The position numbers and the translations under genes were made by a program. From Halobiforma lacisalsi AJ5 (GTDB lineage Archaea; Halobacteriota; Halobacteria; Halobacteriales; Natrialbaceae): 64,000 nucleotides of DNA. Positions 4,171 through 13,189 of this stretch are shown one piece after another. The DNA lies in assembly GCF_000226975.2 (NCBI RefSeq), contig NZ_CP019285.1:1612001-1676000 (forward strand). Reading direction: 5' to 3'. Numbering within the stretch: position 1 is the first letter of the stretch; the number at the start of each line of letters is the position of its first letter. The notes below the pieces were generated by a model that made no database searches, was not told the DNA's origin, and saw only the letters and a list, made by a program, of their open reading frames with translations.

Positions 4171-4279
4171 ACCCGACCCTATTCTCGGGTTATACTAATC
4201 CGTGATGGTCCGCGCGAGTGACAGTCGCGTTCGACGACCGCACCAAACGCTATACGTACGCGTCACGCCAATCTCGACC
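4171..4279. promoter_or_regulatory. Divergent promoter region, thiDN and nosD
   Basis: Two TATA-like boxes face away from each other in 109 bases: TTAGTATAA on the minus strand (4190-4198) for thiDN and GCTATACG on the plus strand (4249-4256) for the nosD operon. Each is 24-28 bases from the chosen start codon, which supports leaderless transcription both ways and supports choosing GTG 4280 for nosD. Confidence 0.55.
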
Positions 4280-6256
4280 GTGCCCAATCGTTCGTGGCGC
4301 GTCGTCGGCGCGGTCGTCCTCCTCCTGGTCGGCTCGGTCGCCGCAATCGGCCCGTTCGTGGTCGAGGTCGAGTCGACGACGCCGGAACCGGCCCCCTTCG
4401 ACGACACCGTCTCCATGGGGCTGCCCCTGTCCGAGGAGTACGGCCTCGAGGAGCGGGTCGCACTGCCGAAGGCGCAGGTCTTCTATTCCCAGTACGAGTA
4501 CGTCGTCGGCTACTACGGGATCGACACCTACGTCGATACGAGCCGGGAAGCCGGTCATTCACAGCAGTTCGGCTACCCGCTCGCGGTGTACGTGACGGAT
4601 TACTCGACGGTCGACGTCGAGCTCACCGAGGAGGGGTATCCCGCGGTCGCCGAGCGCGGGGAACCCGGCTGGGTCGACGCCGAACGCGCGTGGTACGTCC
4701 ACGACAGCGAGGCGGCGACGCCGCGGGGGAACGCGATCCTTCCCTTCTCCGACCGGGTCGACGCCGAGGCGTTCGCCGACGCCCGCGGCGGGACCGTCCT
4801 CGCGTGGACGGATCTGCTCGAGGCCGAGTTCGACCGGGCGGAGGCGACCGTCGTCCGCGACCGGGTCGACGACCACCGCGCGGACGGCGACCGCCGCGTC
4901 GCGGCGGGGGCCGACCTCCGGGACCGGCCCGTCTCGACCGTCGTCGGCGAGGACGCCGACACCATCCAGGGGGCGATCGACGACGCGCCAGCGAACACGA
5001 CCGTCCGGATCCCGGCCGGGGAGTACGAGGAACGTCTCGAGATCGATCGCCCGCTCACGCTCGTCGGCGACGGGAACGTCACCATCGACGGCGGCGGTAA
5101 CGGGTCGGTGATCACGACGACGGCGAACCGGACCGCGCTGATCGACCTCGAGATCACCGATTCCGGGACCGTGCAACAGGGCTCCGGCGAGTTGCCGGGA
5201 TTCGATCCCCAGGAGGACGGCGACGACGAGGAGTGGGACGCGACGTTCGAGCGTAACTACGCCGGCGGCGACGCCGGAATCGCGGCCCACTCCGCGACCG
5301 ACTCGCTGATCGAGAACGTCACGATCGACTCCGAGATCACCGGGATCGTCCTCCGGCGCAGCGGCGAGTCCGTCGTCCGTAACGTGACCGTCCACAGCCC
5401 CGAGATGTGGGAGGACGGCCACGCGGCGATCCTGGCGTTTCGTTCGCCGATCGTCGTCGAGAACTCGACGGTGTACGACGGCCGCGACGCCGTCTACTCC
5501 CACCGGTCGCCGGGGCTGGTCGTCCGGGACAACTACTTCGAGGGGAACCGCCTCGGCGTCCACCTGATGCACACCTCGGACTCGCTGGTCGCGGACAACC
5601 GGCTTCGGAACCAGTCCAACACGGGGATCTACGTCATGACCGGGCCGGAGCGCAACGCCGTCGTCGGCAACGACATCAGCAACGCCGACTACGCGCTGTT
5701 CCCCAGCGGGAGCGACTCCTACATCGCCGACAACGTCCTCACGGACAGTCGCGTCGGTCTGCGGGTCGACGCGACCGGGACGATCTACGAGCGAAACGTC
5801 GTCGCCGGCAACGAGATCGGGGCCCAGACGCGCTCGATGCTCCCGACGAATCGGGTGACGCGAAACGACTTCGTCGAGAACGACGTCCACGCGGACGCGG
5901 GAACCGGCCCGCTGCGGATCTGGACCGACGACGGCGTCGGCAACTACTGGCAGGGCGCGACGGCTCTCGACACGGCCGGCCGGGACGGCTCCGTCATGGA
6001 GCGGTCCTACTCGCCGACCGACCCCGTCGACCGGCGGCTCCACCGGGTCGACGGCGCGGAGACGCTGTCGCGTGCGCCCGCTCTCGATGCACTCGAGGGT
6101 CTACAGGGGACCGTCCCCGGGATGCGGACCGGCAGCGTCGTCGATCTGGCACCGACCTGTGAACCGAACAACCCGGACCTCCTCGAGCGGACCGAGTGGG
6201 CCGATCGAGCGTGGTCCTGCGATCGAACGCAACCGACGAGTTACGGTGAGACATGA
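4280..6256 (+). CDS. nosD: NosD-like beta-helix protein with N-terminal NosL-like domain (copy 1)
   Basis: A 658-residue protein, exported or anchored by one N-terminal hydrophobic helix (about residues 5-27). NosD works with NosF and NosY outside the cell membrane in maturing the copper centre of nitrous oxide reductase. Residues about 60-195 resemble NosL: YVTDYSTVDV, WYVHDSE and DAEAFADARGGTV match the neighbouring NosL at 8152, but the copper-ligand cysteines and methionine are missing. From about residue 220 (VVGEDADTIQGAIDDAP) it is a right-handed parallel beta-helix of the periplasmic copper-binding/CASH type, with repeats such as IENVTIDSEITGIVLR and GVHLMHTSDSLVADN. Two cysteines close the protein (TCEPNNPDLL and SCDRT). 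GTG 4280 is chosen because it lies 27 bases after a TATA box and directly before the signal helix; the frame is open from 4202. nosF follows after one base. Confidence 0.85.
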   Translation: MPNRSWRVVGAVVLLLVGSVAAIGPFVVEVESTTPEPAPFDDTVSMGLPLSEEYGLEERVALPKAQVFYSQYEYVVGYYGIDTYVDTSREAGHSQQFGYPLAVYVTDYSTVDVELTEEGYPAVAERGEPGWVDAERAWYVHDSEAATPRGNAILPFSDRVDAEAFADARGGTVLAWTDLLEAEFDRAEATVVRDRVDDHRADGDRRVAAGADLRDRPVSTVVGEDADTIQGAIDDAPANTTVRIPAGEYEERLEIDRPLTLVGDGNVTIDGGGNGSVITTTANRTALIDLEITDSGTVQQGSGELPGFDPQEDGDDEEWDATFERNYAGGDAGIAAHSATDSLIENVTIDSEITGIVLRRSGESVVRNVTVHSPEMWEDGHAAILAFRSPIVVENSTVYDGRDAVYSHRSPGLVVRDNYFEGNRLGVHLMHTSDSLVADNRLRNQSNTGIYVMTGPERNAVVGNDISNADYALFPSGSDSYIADNVLTDSRVGLRVDATGTIYERNVVAGNEIGAQTRSMLPTNRVTRNDFVENDVHADAGTGPLRIWTDDGVGNYWQGATALDTAGRDGSVMERSYSPTDPVDRRLHRVDGAETLSRAPALDALEGLQGTVPGMRTGSVVDLAPTCEPNNPDLLERTEWADRAWSCDRTQPTSYGET

Positions 6257-6257
6257 T

Positions 6258-7190
6258 ATGACCGACGAGACGGCCAGCCCGAACGCGGCGCCGACCGGCG
6301 ACTCGAGCGCCGCGTCCCGAGCGCGGGAATCGAACGACGACAACGACTCCGAGAGCAATCGCAGGGGACGGGCAAACGCACCCCCGGCCGACGCGAGCGT
6401 TGACCCCGAACCGCGGTCCGGAACCCGGTCCGAGCGGGACTCGACGCCGGAGACGGACCGAGCGCCCGTTCTCGAGGCGACGGACGTCGACCACGCCTAC
6501 GGGGACGTCTCCGTTCTGGAGGACCTCTCGATGGCCGTCGACGCCGGGGCCGTCACCGCCCTGGTCGGGCCGAACGGCTCCGGCAAGACGACCCTGCTGC
6601 GGGTGCTCGCCGGCCTGCTCGAGCCGACGTCGGGCTCGGTCGCCTACGAGGGCCGGGAGGCCGTCCGCCGGATCGGGTATCTTCCACAGCAGCCCGCCTT
6701 CCGCCCGGGGTTCACCGTCCTCGAGACGCTGGAGTTCTACTCGTCGCTCGTCGGCGCCGACGCGGACGACGCGATGGGCCGCCTCGAGACGGTCGGACTG
6801 GCGGATGCGGCCGATCGGCCCGTCGAGGCGCTCTCGGGCGGCATGACACGACTCGCCGGGATCGCACAGGCGACGATCGGCGATCCGCCGGTCGTCGTAC
6901 TGGACGAGCCGGCGAGCGGCCTCGATCCCGGCATGAGCAGACACGTCTTCGAGATCGCTTCGGAGTTCGCCGCGGAGGGGACGGCGGTCCTGCTGAGTTC
7001 CCACGACCTCGGACTGGTCGACCGCGTCGCCGACGAGGTCGCGATACTCGACGAGGGGCGGATCGTCCGCCGGGGACCGCCCGCGGCGCTGCGGGCGGAC
7101 CTCGGCGTCGACTCGTTGCGCGGGGTCTACGAGGAGTCGGTCGCAGCCGAGGCCGGCACCGTGCGGGTGCAGGGGGTGACCGACGAATGA
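6258..7190 (+). CDS. nosF: NosF-type ABC transporter ATPase
   Basis: A 310-residue cytoplasmic ATP-binding subunit that powers the NosY membrane partner. A disordered, acidic N-terminus of about 75 residues precedes the ABC domain. Motifs in order: Walker A GPNGSGKTT, Q-loop region YLPQQPAF, signature LSGGMTRLAG, Walker B VVVLDEPASGLDPG and switch histidine SSHDLGLV. ATG 6258 is chosen (MTDETASPNA); the frame is open further upstream but that would overlap nosD. It starts one base after the nosD stop and overlaps nosY by four bases (ATGA), so the three are translationally coupled. Together NosDFY are thought to move a sulfur species or assist metal-site assembly; the exact cargo cannot be read from sequence. 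Confidence 0.88.
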   Translation: MTDETASPNAAPTGDSSAASRARESNDDNDSESNRRGRANAPPADASVDPEPRSGTRSERDSTPETDRAPVLEATDVDHAYGDVSVLEDLSMAVDAGAVTALVGPNGSGKTTLLRVLAGLLEPTSGSVAYEGREAVRRIGYLPQQPAFRPGFTVLETLEFYSSLVGADADDAMGRLETVGLADAADRPVEALSGGMTRLAGIAQATIGDPPVVVLDEPASGLDPGMSRHVFEIASEFAAEGTAVLLSSHDLGLVDRVADEVAILDEGRIVRRGPPAALRADLGVDSLRGVYEESVAAEAGTVRVQGVTDE

Positions 7191-8065
7191 GCGGCGAATC
7201 CGGCGAGACGCGAGCGGCAACCGCGGCCGAATCCCAGCGCGAGCCGTCGATCCCGAGCACCGGTCACCGCCTGTGGACGATCGTCGACCGCGAACTCCAC
7301 ACCGTGGCCCGAACCCGGACCTTCTACCTCCTCGCCGCCGCGCTCGCGGCCGTCGTCCTCGGGATCACCTGGATCGGCGACGGGTTCACTGCGGGGTATC
7401 TCCCCACGACCGTCGACCTCCTGACGCCGCTCGAGTTGCTCGTCCCGATCGTCGCCGTCGCGTTCGGCTACCGGGCGATCCTGGGCGACGAACTGCGGGG
7501 CGAACTCGACGTCCTCGAGACCTATCCCGTCTCGTCCCGCGAGATCGTCCTTGGGGTCTACGCGGGCCGGGCCGTCGGCGTCGCCGTCGCGATCGCGGTG
7601 CCGCTCGTGCTGGCCGCGGTCGGGATCGCATTGGGGGGCGAAGATCCCGTCGCTATCTACGCGACCCACACGGGTGCGGACTCGCCGATCCTGTTCGCCC
7701 GGTTCCTCGTCCTGACGGTCCTGTTCGGCCTCGTCCTCCTGGCGGTCGCGATCGCCATCTCCGCGCTGGTCGGCGGGACCCGCAGCGCCCTCGCGCTGGC
7801 GGTCGTCGCGCTCGTCGCCCTGCTGATCGGCTTCGACCTGGCGCTGGTCTACGGGCTCGCGGAGGGCGTGATCGGCGAGGCCGACCTGCTGTACTCGCTG
7901 GCGATCAGTCCGCTGAGCGCGTACCGCGGGCTCGTCCTCGAGACGACGGTCGTCGTCGCCTCGGGAACGGGACCGCGCGTGGCCTCGCCGCTGGCCAGTC
8001 TGATCGGGCTTGCCGCCTGGACCGTCGGCTCGCTCGCGGTCGCGATCTGGGGCGTCCGCCGGTAA
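7187..8065 (+). CDS. nosY: NosY-type ABC-2 membrane permease
   Basis: A 292-residue ABC-2 family integral membrane protein with six predicted helices. Hydrophobic segments begin near residues 45, 78, 125, 165, 205 and 265, and an amphipathic stretch between helices 2 and 3 holds DELRGELDVLETYPVSSREIVLGVYAGR. That motif is typical of NosY permeases, which pair with NosF in the membrane and with NosD outside. The start ATG overlaps the nosF stop (ATGA), confirming the operon. A polar N-terminus of about 25 residues precedes the first contact helix. No nosL follows on this strand; the neighbouring nosL is convergent. Confidence 0.87.
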   Translation: MSGESGETRAATAAESQREPSIPSTGHRLWTIVDRELHTVARTRTFYLLAAALAAVVLGITWIGDGFTAGYLPTTVDLLTPLELLVPIVAVAFGYRAILGDELRGELDVLETYPVSSREIVLGVYAGRAVGVAVAIAVPLVLAAVGIALGGEDPVAIYATHTGADSPILFARFLVLTVLFGLVLLAVAIAISALVGGTRSALALAVVALVALLIGFDLALVYGLAEGVIGEADLLYSLAISPLSAYRGLVLETTVVVASGTGPRVASPLASLIGLAAWTVGSLAVAIWGVRR

Positions 8066-8151: not shown

Positions 8152-8757
8152 TTATCCGCCGCCCATCAGCGACATGACCAGTTCGCTGGTCACGTCCTCG
8201 TGATCGTACAGTTCGCCGCCGTGGTCGGCCCGGAACTCCTCGGCCTCGTCCCCGTCGGTGAAGCCGATCATCGACGGTCCCATCGCTCCCTGGACTTCGC
8301 TGTCGACGACCAGCGAGAGGTCCTCGACCGCCGCGAACGCCTCGGCCTCGAGGTGGTTGCTGATCTCCTCGATGTCGTCGGCCGTGTCGATGCTGTACTC
8401 GACGCTCGAGTAGTCGGTCAGGTAGGTGGCTTCGGGGTCGTCGCCCGCCTCGGAACGCTCGAAGGTGTAGGTGTACGTACACAGCGAGCTACAGAACTGT
8501 GCGGGCCGGTCCTCGCCGACGACGGCCTCGGCGTCGGCGTAGTGGGCCTGTCCGACGGGGCCGGGGTGCTGGCCGATCACCATCGTACACTGGTCGCAGG
8601 TCTGCTCGCCCTCGATCGTGATGGGATCGGGGGCGTCGCCGTCGCCGCCGAGACAGCCGGCGAGCGACGCGATCCCGACGCCGGCCGCGCCGACCAGCAC
8701 CGCGCGGCGGGGAACGCCGTCGCGGGGCCGACCTTCGTCTCTCGTTTGCTCGTCCAT
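8152..8757 (-). CDS. nosL: NosL-family copper-binding Tat lipoprotein (copy 1)
   Basis: A 201-residue lipoprotein facing the outside of the cell. The N-terminus has a Tat-like basic pair and a lipobox, IASLAGC, with the lipid-attachment cysteine near residue 31. The NosL copper motif CDQCTM follows at about residues 50-55, and a second cysteine pair, FCSSLC, sits near residue 85. YLTDYSSVEY, MGPSMIGF and EFRADHGGEL are family core segments. NosL delivers Cu(I) to nitrous oxide reductase or related copper enzymes. The frame is open to 8904, but ATG 8757 gives the signal peptide and is chosen. It converges on nosDFY and diverges from the SCO gene with a 146-base shared promoter region. Confidence 0.88.
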   Translation of the reverse strand: MDEQTRDEGRPRDGVPRRAVLVGAAGVGIASLAGCLGGDGDAPDPITIEGEQTCDQCTMVIGQHPGPVGQAHYADAEAVVGEDRPAQFCSSLCTYTYTFERSEAGDDPEATYLTDYSSVEYSIDTADDIEEISNHLEAEAFAAVEDLSLVVDSEVQGAMGPSMIGFTDGDEAEEFRADHGGELYDHEDVTSELVMSLMGGG

Positions 8758-8903
8758 ACCGTCCGAGACGTGCTCGACGACTAAGTCCCGTCTGGTTCGG
8801 TTCCCGAACGCCTCGCCCGTAGACGGGCCGTATCGCCGCTCTCCGGGAGTGTTTCGACAAATACACCAGATCGTACTTGGTCGTTCGGTGGCTACTGCCG
8901 ACA
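8758..8903. promoter_or_regulatory. Divergent promoter region between nosL and SCO genes
   Basis: This 146-base interval separates two outward-facing copper-protein genes and must carry both promoters. No strong TATA box or operator palindrome stands out by eye. The base composition is that of the surrounding genome. Confidence 0.3.
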
Positions 8904-9578
8904 ATGAACCGACGCCGCGTGCTCGGTGCCGGAGCGACCGCTGGACTGACCGCCGTCGCGGGCTGTCTGACCGGACTGGTGGCCGAGGAATCGTCCGACG
9001 ACGTCGTCCTCGAGCAGCCAGAAGAGGGGATCGAGGGCGACCCCTCGTACCCGACCTACGGGGATCCGTTCCCGACGTTCGAGGCCGAGGACCCGCTCGC
9101 CGAAACGACCGTCGCCGTCGACGACCTCGGGGACGACGCGTTCGTCGCGACGGCGTTCTTCGCGAGTTGTCCCGCCGAGTGCATCCCGCTGATCGACTCG
9201 CTTACACGTGTCCAGGACAACGCGGCCGACCGTGGTTTAGGCGACGAGAGCCGGTTTCTCGCGATCACGTTCGATCCCGAGCGCGACACTGCCGAGAGCC
9301 TCCGGGAACACGCCGACATGTTCGACGTCGATCTCGAGGCGGGCAACTGGCACTATCTCCGTCCTGACGGCCGTGAGCGGGCGAAGGAGATCGTCCACGA
9401 GGGGTTGGGGATCCCCTTCCAGCGCGAGGAGATGGGCGACGACTACGACTTCATCCACATCACGGTGACGTTCCTCGTCAATCCGGACGGGTACGTCGAG
9501 CGAACCTACCGCGGCGAGAACCCCGACGCCGGTCGAATCACCGACGACCTCGAGCGGGTCGTCGACGGCTGGCAGTAA
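8904..9578 (+). CDS. SCO1/SenC-family copper chaperone, Tat lipoprotein
   Basis: A 224-residue thioredoxin-fold lipoprotein. It begins MNRRRVLGAG, a Tat motif, and has the lipobox AVAGC. The SCO copper site is visible: CPAEC (about residues 91-95, the CxxxC pair) and a downstream histidine in DYDFIHITVTFLVNPDG that supplies the third ligand. SCO proteins insert copper into the CuA centre of cytochrome oxidase, and CuA is also the electron-entry site of nitrous oxide reductase. The segment FLAITFDPERDT is the family core. The safE-like gene follows after 6 bases, so the two form an operon. ATG 8904 gives the signal peptide. Confidence 0.9.
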   Translation: MNRRRVLGAGATAGLTAVAGCLTGLVAEESSDDVVLEQPEEGIEGDPSYPTYGDPFPTFEAEDPLAETTVAVDDLGDDAFVATAFFASCPAECIPLIDSLTRVQDNAADRGLGDESRFLAITFDPERDTAESLREHADMFDVDLEAGNWHYLRPDGRERAKEIVHEGLGIPFQREEMGDDYDFIHITVTFLVNPDGYVERTYRGENPDAGRITDDLERVVDGWQ

Positions 9579-9584
9579 CTCGGG

Positions 9585-10436
9585 ATGGCGTCCGCTATCG
9601 TTCCGGCGCTGGGTCCGCGGATCGTCCTCGAGCAGTGTTACGATCCGGCGCTGGACCCGACCGCCGTCGAACCGGCCGGCGTCGTCGTCTTCGCGTTGAT
9701 CGGGCTCCTGGGCGGGGCCCACTGTCTCGGGATGTGTGGCCCGCTCGTGACGACCTACTCCGACCGGCTTCGTGCCGGCAACGACGGCCCGGCGGCACGG
9801 ACCGAACTCACCCTCGGCATGGTCCGCCAGCACGCGCTGTTCAACCTCGGGCGCGCGGCGAGCTACGCGCTTCTGGGCGGGCTGTTCGGCCTCGCCGGCG
9901 CGGCCGTCTTCGTCTCCCCGCGGACCGTGACCGCGGTCGCGACCGACGTTCACGCCGTCGCCGGCATCGTCGTCGGCACGCTGATCGTCGCGATGGGCCT
10001 CCACTACCTGGCCGGTCGGGGACTCGTCGGCGGGTCCGTCCGGCTCCCGTTCGTCACGCCGCTCCTCGAGCGCGTCCACGCGCGGCTGCTCGCGAACGTC
10101 GACGCCTGGGTCGGCGACGTCCGGATCGCCGGTCTCGGGGCGGCCCACGGCCTGCTCCCGTGTCCGCTGCTCTACCCGGCGTTCCTGTACGCGTTCGTCC
10201 GGGGATCGCCCGTCGAGGGCGTCCTCGCGCTCGCTGCGCTCGGGCTCGGGACCGTGCCGTCGCTGTTCCTCTATGGCACGCTGTTCCAGTCGCTCAGCCT
10301 CGAGACCCGGATGAGGCTGCACCGCGTCCTGGGCGTCGCGTTCGTCGCGCTCGGCTACGTCCCGCTGCAACACGGGCTCGCGACGTTCGGGGTCGGGCTG
10401 CCGGCGGTGCCGCTGCCCTACTACCAGCCGCTGTGA
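9585..10436 (+). CDS. TauE/SafE (UreH-like) membrane protein, probable copper or thiol transport
   Basis: A 283-residue membrane protein with about six helices in two related halves. The first half carries GGAHCLGMCGPLVT (about residues 43-56) and the second GAAHGLLPCPLLYPAF (about 184-199). These paired H/C motifs define the COG2836 group, which is linked to cytochrome-oxidase and copper-enzyme assembly and is related to DsbD transmembrane domains. The gene starts 6 bases after the SCO gene, so a shared job in copper or disulfide handling at the membrane is likely (inference). The transported species is not known for this group. Confidence 0.82.
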   Translation: MASAIVPALGPRIVLEQCYDPALDPTAVEPAGVVVFALIGLLGGAHCLGMCGPLVTTYSDRLRAGNDGPAARTELTLGMVRQHALFNLGRAASYALLGGLFGLAGAAVFVSPRTVTAVATDVHAVAGIVVGTLIVAMGLHYLAGRGLVGGSVRLPFVTPLLERVHARLLANVDAWVGDVRIAGLGAAHGLLPCPLLYPAFLYAFVRGSPVEGVLALAALGLGTVPSLFLYGTLFQSLSLETRMRLHRVLGVAFVALGYVPLQHGLATFGVGLPAVPLPYYQPL

Positions 10437-10461: not shown

Positions 10462-11079
10462 TCACGGCAACCGCGTGCTCCGGTAGATCCGTGCTACGTC
10501 CTCGTCGACTTCCTCGAGACCGATCACGTCGTCCTCGCTCAGGTCGTCGTACTGCCGGACGTACTCGAGGGCGGTCTCCTCGTCGGCGTAGACGCGCGGA
10601 TCGATCTTCATCGGGTCGTCGGCCCGCAGTTCGTCCCGTTCCAGCGCGTAGTAGGCCTCGAAGCCGTCGATCAACTCGCCGGTGTCGAAGTCGGTCACCC
10701 AGACGTTGGCGACCGGGCTGTCCGGTCCGTCGAAGTGGTCCGGGGCGACGTAGTAGGCAAACAGACAGCCGGGGCTACAGAAGGGGATTCCCTCGCCGTT
10801 CTCGTGGGCGAGTTGGGCGTTTCGCTCGGGGTAGTTGACCACACCCATCGTACAGACGCCACAGAGGTGGTCGCTCTCGAAGGAGAGCGGTTCGTCGACG
10901 GGGTGGTCGACGAGGTGTGGAGAGCGGGCGTCCTCGTCCCCGTCGTCGTCGTCGGGATCGACGACGTCGTCGGCGTCCCCGCCGCCGGTACAGCCGGCGA
11001 GCCCGGTGACCGAGCCGACGCCGGCCGCGGCCAGCAGTCGACGTCGGGACCAGGGTCGCAACGGCGAACGGTCTGTCAT
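10462..11079 (-). CDS. nosL: NosL-family copper-binding Tat lipoprotein (copy 2)
   Basis: A 205-residue lipoprotein with a Tat signal (SRRRLLAAAG) and lipobox GLAGC near residue 30. An acidic linker, nearly all D and E, leads to the copper motif CGVCTM (about residues 68-73), followed by FCSPGC near residue 98. It differs clearly from copy 1 after the second cysteine pair: the C-terminal half is acidic and helical (ALEYVRQYDDLSEDDVIGL) in place of the MGPSMIGF type of segment. The frame runs to 11412, but ATG 11079 gives the signal peptide. It converges on safE and diverges from the second nosD, mirroring the first nosL-nosD pair. Confidence 0.85.
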   Translation of the reverse strand: MTDRSPLRPWSRRRLLAAAGVGSVTGLAGCTGGGDADDVVDPDDDDGDEDARSPHLVDHPVDEPLSFESDHLCGVCTMGVVNYPERNAQLAHENGEGIPFCSPGCLFAYYVAPDHFDGPDSPVANVWVTDFDTGELIDGFEAYYALERDELRADDPMKIDPRVYADEETALEYVRQYDDLSEDDVIGLEEVDEDVARIYRSTRLP

Positions 11080-11218: not shown

Positions 11219-13189
11219 ATGGCCGTTTCGCGTCGCCGTCTCGTCTCGATCGGGCTCCTCCTCCTCGTCGTCTGCGCTGCAGGCCTGTTCGTCGTCGATG
11301 CGGGCTCGGCGGAGCCGGAGCCGGAACCGGTCCCGTTCCACGATACCGTCACCACGGGCGTCGTCCTCGAGAACGAGCCTTCGCCGGACGACCGCGGGAT
11401 CGAGGTGCCCAAGGTTCAGGTCTTTTACTCCCAGTACGAGTACGTCGTCGGCTACCGTGGCGTCGAGCGTTTCGTCGACGACCGGGCCGGCCCCCGCCAC
11501 GAGGAGCGGTTCGGCCACCCGATCGCGGCGTACGTCACGGACTACTCGACGGTCGACGTCAGCCTCACCGAGGAGGGATATCCCGTCGCGGCCGGGCCCC
11601 CGTCGTGGACCGATGCCGAGTCGGCCGCCTACGTCGTCGACAGCGACGCGCGAACGCCGGCCGGTGAGACGGTCGTTCCCTTCGGGAATCGCGACGACGC
11701 AGCGGCGTTCGCGGCGGCTCACGGCGGTACCGTGGTCGGGTGGGAATCCCTCCTCGAGCGCGAGTTCGACGTCGACGACGCGGGGGTCGTCCGCGACCGG
11801 GTCGACCGTCGACACGCGCGGGCCGACGACCGCATCGAGGACGCGAACCGCCTGCGTGAGCGCCCCGTCGAGGTCGTCGTCGGCGAGGACGCTCCGACGC
11901 TCGAGGCGGCCGTGGAGGCGGCCCCGCCGAATTCGACGGTGGTCGTTCCCGGCGGCGTCCACGAGGTGTCGAACGGGGATAGAGAGGAGGACGGGGACGC
12001 CCTCGAGATCGATCGGCCGATCACGCTTGCCGGCCGGAGCGACGGCGACGGTACGGAGAGCCAGCCAGTCCTCCGGGGCGACGGCAACGGTTCCGTCGTC
12101 GTCATCGAGTCGGACCACGCCGCGGTCGTCGACCTCCGGATCGACGGCGTGGGGGATGCGACGGAACCCGAGGCCGACGATGGCGAAGCCGGGGCCAGCG
12201 ACGCCCTCGAGATGGCCTACGGGCGGAGCGATGCCGGAATAGCGGTCGCCGACGCCGGCGGCGTCCTCGTCGAGAACGTGACGATCGAGACGCCGGCTAC
12301 CGGCGTCTTGCTCCGTGACGCCCCGGAGAGCGTCGTCCGGAACGTCTCCGTCCACGGCAGCGACCGCTGGGACGAGGGGTACATGGGCGTCACGGCGGTC
12401 CGCTCGCCCGACGCAGTCGTCGAGGACTCGCGGTTCGTCGACGGTCGCGACGGGATCTACCTCCACCGCTCGGACGGTATCGTGTACCGGAACAACCACC
12501 TCGTGGGCAACCGGATCGGCGTCCACCTGATGTACACCTCGAGCGCGCTGATCGCGGACAACCGGATCGAAGACGCGTCCTCGACGGGGATCGACCTCAT
12601 GACCGACCCCGAGCACAACGCCGTCGTCGGCAACGAGATCCGTGATGCGTCCCAGGGGATCGTCACGTCCGGGTCGCGGTCCTACGTCGCCGGGAACCTC
12701 GTCACCGGGACCGACGTCGGGCTGACCACCGGCGCGGGCCACTCGATCTACGAGGGCAACGCCCTCGTGGCCAACCTCGAGGGGATGCGTGCGAATCACC
12801 TCCTGCCGACAAACGAGGTAACCGGCAACGACTTCGTCGGGAACCACGAGCACGCGACCGCGCGGCTCGGGACGCTTCGCGTCTGGAGCGAGGGCGGGAC
12901 GGGGAACTTCTGGCACGGTGCCGTCGGCGCGCCCGCTGCCGATCGACCCGTCCTCGAGCGGTCACACTCGCCGACCCACCCCGCCGATCGCCGCCTCCAC
13001 CGCGTCGACGGAGCGCCCACGCTCGCCCGTGCGCCCGCCACCGACGCCCTGTCGACGCTCGAGGGCTCGGTCTCGGGCATGCGATCGGAGCGGATCGTCG
13101 ACCCGGACCCGCTGTGTGAACCGGCGAACCCCGAGTTACTCGCGCGCGCCGACTGGGAGTGGGACGAACCGGACCGGGCCTGCGGCTAG
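11219..13189 (+). CDS. nosD: NosD-like beta-helix protein with N-terminal NosL-like domain (copy 2)
   Basis: A 656-residue paralogue of the protein at 4280, with the same build: a signal or anchor helix (about residues 5-26), the segment VPKVQVFYSQYEYVVGY, a cysteine-free NosL-like domain (YVTDYSTVDV, YVVDSDARTP, AAAFAAAHGGTV) and then a parallel beta-helix from about residue 220. The C-terminus again ends with two cysteines (LCEPANPELL and the last residues). It carries an acidic insert (around residues 300-325) not matched in copy 1. Unlike copy 1 it has no nosF or nosY behind it, so it either shares the first transporter or acts alone. ATG 11219 is preferred over the in-frame ATG 11168 because it abuts the signal helix. 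Confidence 0.83.
   Translation: MAVSRRRLVSIGLLLLVVCAAGLFVVDAGSAEPEPEPVPFHDTVTTGVVLENEPSPDDRGIEVPKVQVFYSQYEYVVGYRGVERFVDDRAGPRHEERFGHPIAAYVTDYSTVDVSLTEEGYPVAAGPPSWTDAESAAYVVDSDARTPAGETVVPFGNRDDAAAFAAAHGGTVVGWESLLEREFDVDDAGVVRDRVDRRHARADDRIEDANRLRERPVEVVVGEDAPTLEAAVEAAPPNSTVVVPGGVHEVSNGDREEDGDALEIDRPITLAGRSDGDGTESQPVLRGDGNGSVVVIESDHAAVVDLRIDGVGDATEPEADDGEAGASDALEMAYGRSDAGIAVADAGGVLVENVTIETPATGVLLRDAPESVVRNVSVHGSDRWDEGYMGVTAVRSPDAVVEDSRFVDGRDGIYLHRSDGIVYRNNHLVGNRIGVHLMYTSSALIADNRIEDASSTGIDLMTDPEHNAVVGNEIRDASQGIVTSGSRSYVAGNLVTGTDVGLTTGAGHSIYEGNALVANLEGMRANHLLPTNEVTGNDFVGNHEHATARLGTLRVWSEGGTGNFWHGAVGAPAADRPVLERSHSPTHPADRRLHRVDGAPTLARAPATDALSTLEGSVSGMRSERIVDPDPLCEPANPELLARADWEWDEPDRACG

Follow-up and report, generated by a model that had tools for sequence, protein, structure and literature searches.

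Both NosD proteins encoded in the window (64,000 nucleotides of the Halobiforma lacisalsi AJ5 genome) begin with a domain that is a genuine relative of the copper chaperone NosL and that has lost the copper ligands of NosL. These fused proteins belong to a NosD-F-Y paralogue distinct from the one linked to nitrous oxide reductase (NosZ), and among haloarchaeal genomes their presence is associated with that of ba3-type heme-copper oxidase. The first of them, NosD1 (4202-6256, forward strand), is an open reading frame of 684 aa with an uncertain start codon, comprising an N-terminal hydrophobic anchor or signal, the NosL-like domain and a beta-helix. It is followed on the same strand by a NosF-like ABC ATPase (6072-7190, the true start probably lying downstream of the start of this reading frame) and a NosY-like ABC permease (7187-8065). 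Then come, in this order, a NosL lipoprotein with CDQCTM and GAMG motifs (8152-8757, reverse strand), an SCO1/SenC copper chaperone (8877-9578, forward strand; Pfam PF02630), a DsbD_2 (SafE-type) membrane protein (9585-10436, forward strand; Pfam PF13386), NosLb, a second NosL-type lipoprotein with the pattern CGVCTM...FCSPGC (10462-11076, reverse strand), and the second fused protein, NosD2 (11219-13189, forward strand), whose reading frame opens at 10835, with the ATG at 11219 as the likely start.

The sequence-only reading had placed a NosL-like domain at 4450-4870 on the basis of three segments paired by eye. The Pfam NosL profile (PF05573) matches NosD1 at 4466-4822 with 63-67 bits and NosD2 at 11408-11749 with 61-65 bits, both on the forward strand and against a cut-off of 24 bits. 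The match spans only positions 23-128 of the 131 profile positions, and the part left unmatched is thus the CxxCxM segment. NosD1 alone retrieves NosL structures by phmmer (2hpu, E 7e-5), a profile of 80 relatives of the fused domain matches solved NosL structures with E-values from 2e-10 to 5e-8, and all 80 relatives, taken singly, match Pfam NosL. In a profile-profile comparison, the fused domain matched 40 haloarchaeal NosL proteins with a probability of 98.9% (E 1.1e-17). The segments YVTDYSTVDV, WYVHDSE and DAEAFADARGGTV were paired in this alignment with the same NosL segments as by eye. The negative control, a profile-profile comparison with NosZ-linked NosD, gave a probability of 0.2%, which rules out chance similarity of the front domain to NosL. 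Moreover, the AlphaFold model of the front domain (4370-4936, forward strand; 189 aa including the long helix that follows) has a pLDDT of 92.6, and the coordinates proposed by eye fit this region. All six PDB matches of this model at E <0.001 are NosL (7og7, E 4e-7; 7znq, 7osf, 7osg, 7osj and 2hpu), and they include crystal, cryo-EM and NMR structures. The predicted fold of the domain is thus that of NosL.

Another important question is whether the domain has retained the means to bind copper. In NosL, Cu(I) is likely held by the Cys and Met conserved in CxM, and one further Met is invariant (PMC6530538). Cys is absent from 90 of 96 fused NosL-like domains and CxM from all 96, in agreement with the missing CxxCTM ligands noted in the sequence-only reading; in almost every domain, Ala, Ser, Gly or Thr stands in place of the GAMG Met. 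In the alignment of 80 fused domains, no column contains Cys, Met or His at a frequency of 60% or more, His 63 being present in 47 of the 80. The Pfam-matched part of the domain opens with a conserved sequence, P-[RK]-x-[QE]-V-F-Y-S-Q-Y-x-Y-V-V-G-Y, and strong conservation is seen at Q/E36, Y39, S40, Y42, Y44 and Y48. Two registers are conceivable for the lost ligands: by topology, CxM would lie opposite [RK]x[QE] (residues 34 and 36), while hhalign and MAFFT pair P33xxQ36 with PxGQ of NosL, so that CxxCxM faces a variable stretch. Under either register the fused domain keeps no NosL ligand, and it thus lacks both the CxM/CxxCxM motif and the second invariant Met of a NosL chaperone. It also lacks a lipobox Cys and is fused to NosD instead of standing alone as a lipoprotein. 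The beta-helix of NosD1 carries an H-x-M...M set (5561-5638, forward strand) consisting of His 398, Met 400 and Met 423 in the numbering of the 628-aa modelled chain. These residues are kept in 76 of 80 fused NosD proteins, their equivalents are invariant in 21 of 21 NosZ-linked NosD proteins, and the set is also seen in the phmmer alignment with Pseudomonas stutzeri NosD. Thus, it is the beta-helix and stand-alone NosL that hold the copper-capable residues, and not the fused domain.

Fused NosD belongs to a NosD-F-Y paralogue of its own, distinct from the NosZ-linked one. The full NosD1 chain (AlphaFold pLDDT 92.5, pTM 0.92) has as its best PDB match 7osf_A, the NosD of the NosDFYL complex, and the fused proteins of the window score 89-91 bits against the NosD beta-helix profile PF05048 (cut-off 23.6), which together with the adjoining NosF and NosY identifies them as NosD. 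Against NCBIfam TIGR04247, they reach 200 and 160 bits, below the curated cut-off of 300 bits (the best of the 80 fused relatives has E 1.2e-67), and the NosZ-linked NosD of the same genome scores 390 bits (E 8e-117). In the beta-helix and NosF trees, fused and NosZ-linked proteins fall into two groups (SH-aLRT 100 and 98), and relative to NosL the fused NosL-like domains group together (99.6). In a plasmid collection, the 22 records with a query coverage of 80% or more all come from haloarchaea, and the bacterial NosD proteins among the matches listed align no earlier than query residue 188. The matches listed from a phylum-level sample include none from outside the class Halobacteria.

The surroundings of the fused genes were surveyed at 81 loci, in which neighbours were counted by searches with named query proteins. 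NosF and NosY are present in all 81. NosL is encoded within ~7 kb of fused NosD in 69, nearly always with its CxxCxM, and 12 loci have no NosL within that distance. SCO was found in 30 loci, DsbD_2 in 24, an HVO_0163-type regulator in 31 and DUF7471 in 23. The DUF7471 membrane protein and the HVO_0163-type winged-helix regulator are thus frequent neighbours of fused NosDFY (for example, L085:12163-12630 and L184:9731-10255, and ~30 other loci) and are candidates for regulating the module.

Two further groups of NosL-type proteins were observed. Stand-alone haloarchaeal proteins without Cys have DDxGGM or DDHGM in place of CxxCxM, with this Met and the later Met of GGMG kept; their reading frames start at L146:3780, L147:4374, L148:10219, L154:702, L160:12959 and L071:7923, and those linked to NosZ at L124:14053 and L137:4423. 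A second NosL subfamily, with CxxCxM and mostly without GAMG, has three copies in the H. lacisalsi genome; it was seen in NosLb of the window and in loci L087 and L088, the L087 copy showing weak similarity to TRASH-type metal-binding domains.

These data raise a key question: which enzyme is served by the fused module? Among 391 genomes, the fused domain occurs in 240 and ba3 oxidase subunit I in 262; 214 genomes have both, 26 the fusion only, 48 ba3 only and 103 neither (OR 17.7, p 2e-32). Stratified by genus, the association persists (OR 18.2, p 2.7e-12, 23 informative genera), although it is a correlation to which shared lifestyle may contribute, an effect reduced but not removed by the genus strata. 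In 13 genomes from four families, by plain count, ba3 genes lie within ~30 kb of fused NosD, and in locus L178 the genes for a Cu-ATPase, DsbD_2, ba3 II, ba3 I, fused NosD, NosF, NosY and NosL stand in one row. Co-occurrence and gene linkage thus agree with a ba3 assembly module, the linkage in a minority of genomes only: in most genomes the genes are not adjacent, and in H. lacisalsi they are ~960 kb apart. The aa3 oxidase, considered as an alternative client, cannot discriminate; since it is near universal (384 of 391 genomes), it fails to explain which genomes carry the fusion. Beside the ba3 genes of several genomes, we also observed heavy-metal P-type ATPases with an N-terminal Cys-rich CTLC...CCRGCL pattern (L178:1757-4249, L180:3669-6080, L184:2896-5298 and L185:6546-8969), similar to the copper ATPases found in oxidase clusters of bacteria.

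The best explanation of the whole, which we hold with about as much belief as doubt, is that the module delivers copper to ba3 oxidase as a machine of the NosDFYL type, in which the inert NosL domain would act as a docking platform. The domain is a NosL paralogue that would have been fused to the front of NosD in haloarchaea, probably once, and that has lost all its copper ligands. Fused NosD, NosF and NosY would work as an ABC machine on the outer side of the membrane, taking Cu(I) from a separate, Cys-bearing NosL. The ligand-free domain would most likely serve as a built-in dock, holding NosL beside the beta-helix through a contact of the NosL-NosL type; copper would move from the docked NosL to the H-x-M...M residues, and motion driven by NosFY would pass it on, with SCO, to the oxidase. 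The most likely client is not nitrous oxide reductase but a ba3-type heme-copper oxidase; SCO and DsbD_2 would be partners in filling its CuA or CuB site. Such a docking role, already proposed in the sequence-only reading, would need a NosL, and one with CxxCxM is indeed encoded nearby in most loci. Counting against the explanation are the 26 fused genomes without detected ba3 and the 48 with the reverse, the 12 loci without a nearby NosL, and the mostly non-adjacent ba3 genes. That haloarchaea turned the NosDFYL machine into a dedicated ba3 copper loader, with the copper-blind NosL copy in NosD as a permanent receptor for the real NosL, is a plausible extension towards which we do not quite lean.

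The setting implied by the sequence-only reading was that of nitrous oxide reductase, so that the fused NosD would serve this enzyme and its domain would offer NosL an additional docking site during CuZ assembly. NosZ is encoded in the H. lacisalsi genome, the crude association of fusion and NosZ across the 391 genomes has an OR of 3.1, and in H. mediterranei the NosD of the NosZ region (HFX_RS15875, near nosZ by locus tag) is tabulated as a NosL family member, with NosFY reported absent (PMC9240420, Table 3). However, the nosZ cluster of H. lacisalsi (nosZ, D, F, Y and L; C1:580-587 kb) encodes a NosD without the domain, and the same is true of 20 other haloarchaeal loci, giving 21 of 21. The H. 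mediterranei entry conflicts with this pattern, as does the nosZ-D-F-Y cluster of Haloferax larsenii with that entry, its NosD being a 461-aa product without the domain. The 81 fused loci yielded no NosZ; of the 113 genomes with NosZ, 24 lack the fusion, and of the 240 with the fusion, 151 lack NosZ. Among ba3-bearing genomes the association vanishes (OR 1.06, p 1.0), and stratified by genus it has an OR of 1.9 (p 0.09). Fused NosD thus tracks ba3 oxidase, and nitrous oxide reductase is a very unlikely client.

The module could also be a general copper loader for exported cuproteins (halocyanins, NirK, multicopper oxidases and several oxidases), with ba3 as one client among others. SCO and NosL are broad copper chaperones, an aa3-type subunit II adjoins fused NosD in loci L077 and L079, and the genomes with the fusion but without ba3 fit such a role; the near universality of aa3 cannot account for the distribution of the fusion, and the ba3 link persists within genera, which makes this reading rather unlikely. 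Alternatively, the domain may be a fixed stand-in that permanently occupies the place of docked NosL and contributes to the structure or gating of NosDFY, with free NosL acting elsewhere (e.g., with SCO). Its defined place in the full-chain model, the strong conservation of the Tyr-rich stretch in spite of the missing ligands and the loci without a nearby NosL are consistent with this, but 69 of the 81 loci do encode NosL alongside, which speaks more for cooperation than for replacement; we regard the stand-in as rather unlikely. It is extremely unlikely that Tyr, Gln, Glu or His 63 still allow the domain to bind copper or some other ligand: the conserved positions 36-48 and the frequent His 63 would suit such binding, but no Cys, Met or His column is well conserved, and Tyr and Gln bind Cu(I) poorly.

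The fused domain shares with NosL (PF05573), the Cu(I) chaperone of nitrous oxide reductase (PMC6530538), the same profile, two beta-beta-alpha-beta repeats and a conserved second repeat, but it is the Cys-free front part of a larger protein, with CxxCxM and the GAMG Met replaced. With the NosDFYL ABC complex (PDB 7osf-7osj and 7znq; NosDFY, 7o0y), the fused system has in common the NosD beta-helix, the NosF and NosY partners, H-x-M...M and a nearby NosL; in contrast, the solved NosD has no NosL-like domain, and the client of that complex is nitrous oxide reductase. In Bacillus azotoformans, NosDYF clusters without nosZ likewise combine NosDFY and NosL away from NosZ, and SCO paralogues of that genome are tied to other enzymes, but neither a NosL-NosD fusion nor a client was described for these clusters (PMC3475470). 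The fusion as such is not new, since it is already present in Pfam-based annotation, both in the table of PMC9240420 and as the GenBank product "nitrous oxide reductase accessory protein NosL/NosD" (CP031304, QCC61054.1), an annotation that is silent on the lost ligands, the separate paralogue and the ba3 association. In the open-licence literature, we found no paper noting any of these three features.

Going by the literature searched, the copper route to archaeal ba3 oxidases is an open question, and NosDFY is viewed as a factor for nitrous oxide reductase. A tractable species for tests is Haloferax volcanii, whose NosD, HVO_0892, is among the N-glycoproteins detected (PMC8241124) and whose cbaA is HVO_0945 (PMC8305020); NosZ was not found in the control genomes, which include this species. 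The pseudo-chaperone domain offers a direct test case for how NosL meets NosD. If the NosDFY paralogue does track ba3 oxidase, this class of ABC machine would serve more than one cuproenzyme, and a "NosD" or "NosL" in a haloarchaeal genome would be no sign of N2O reduction.
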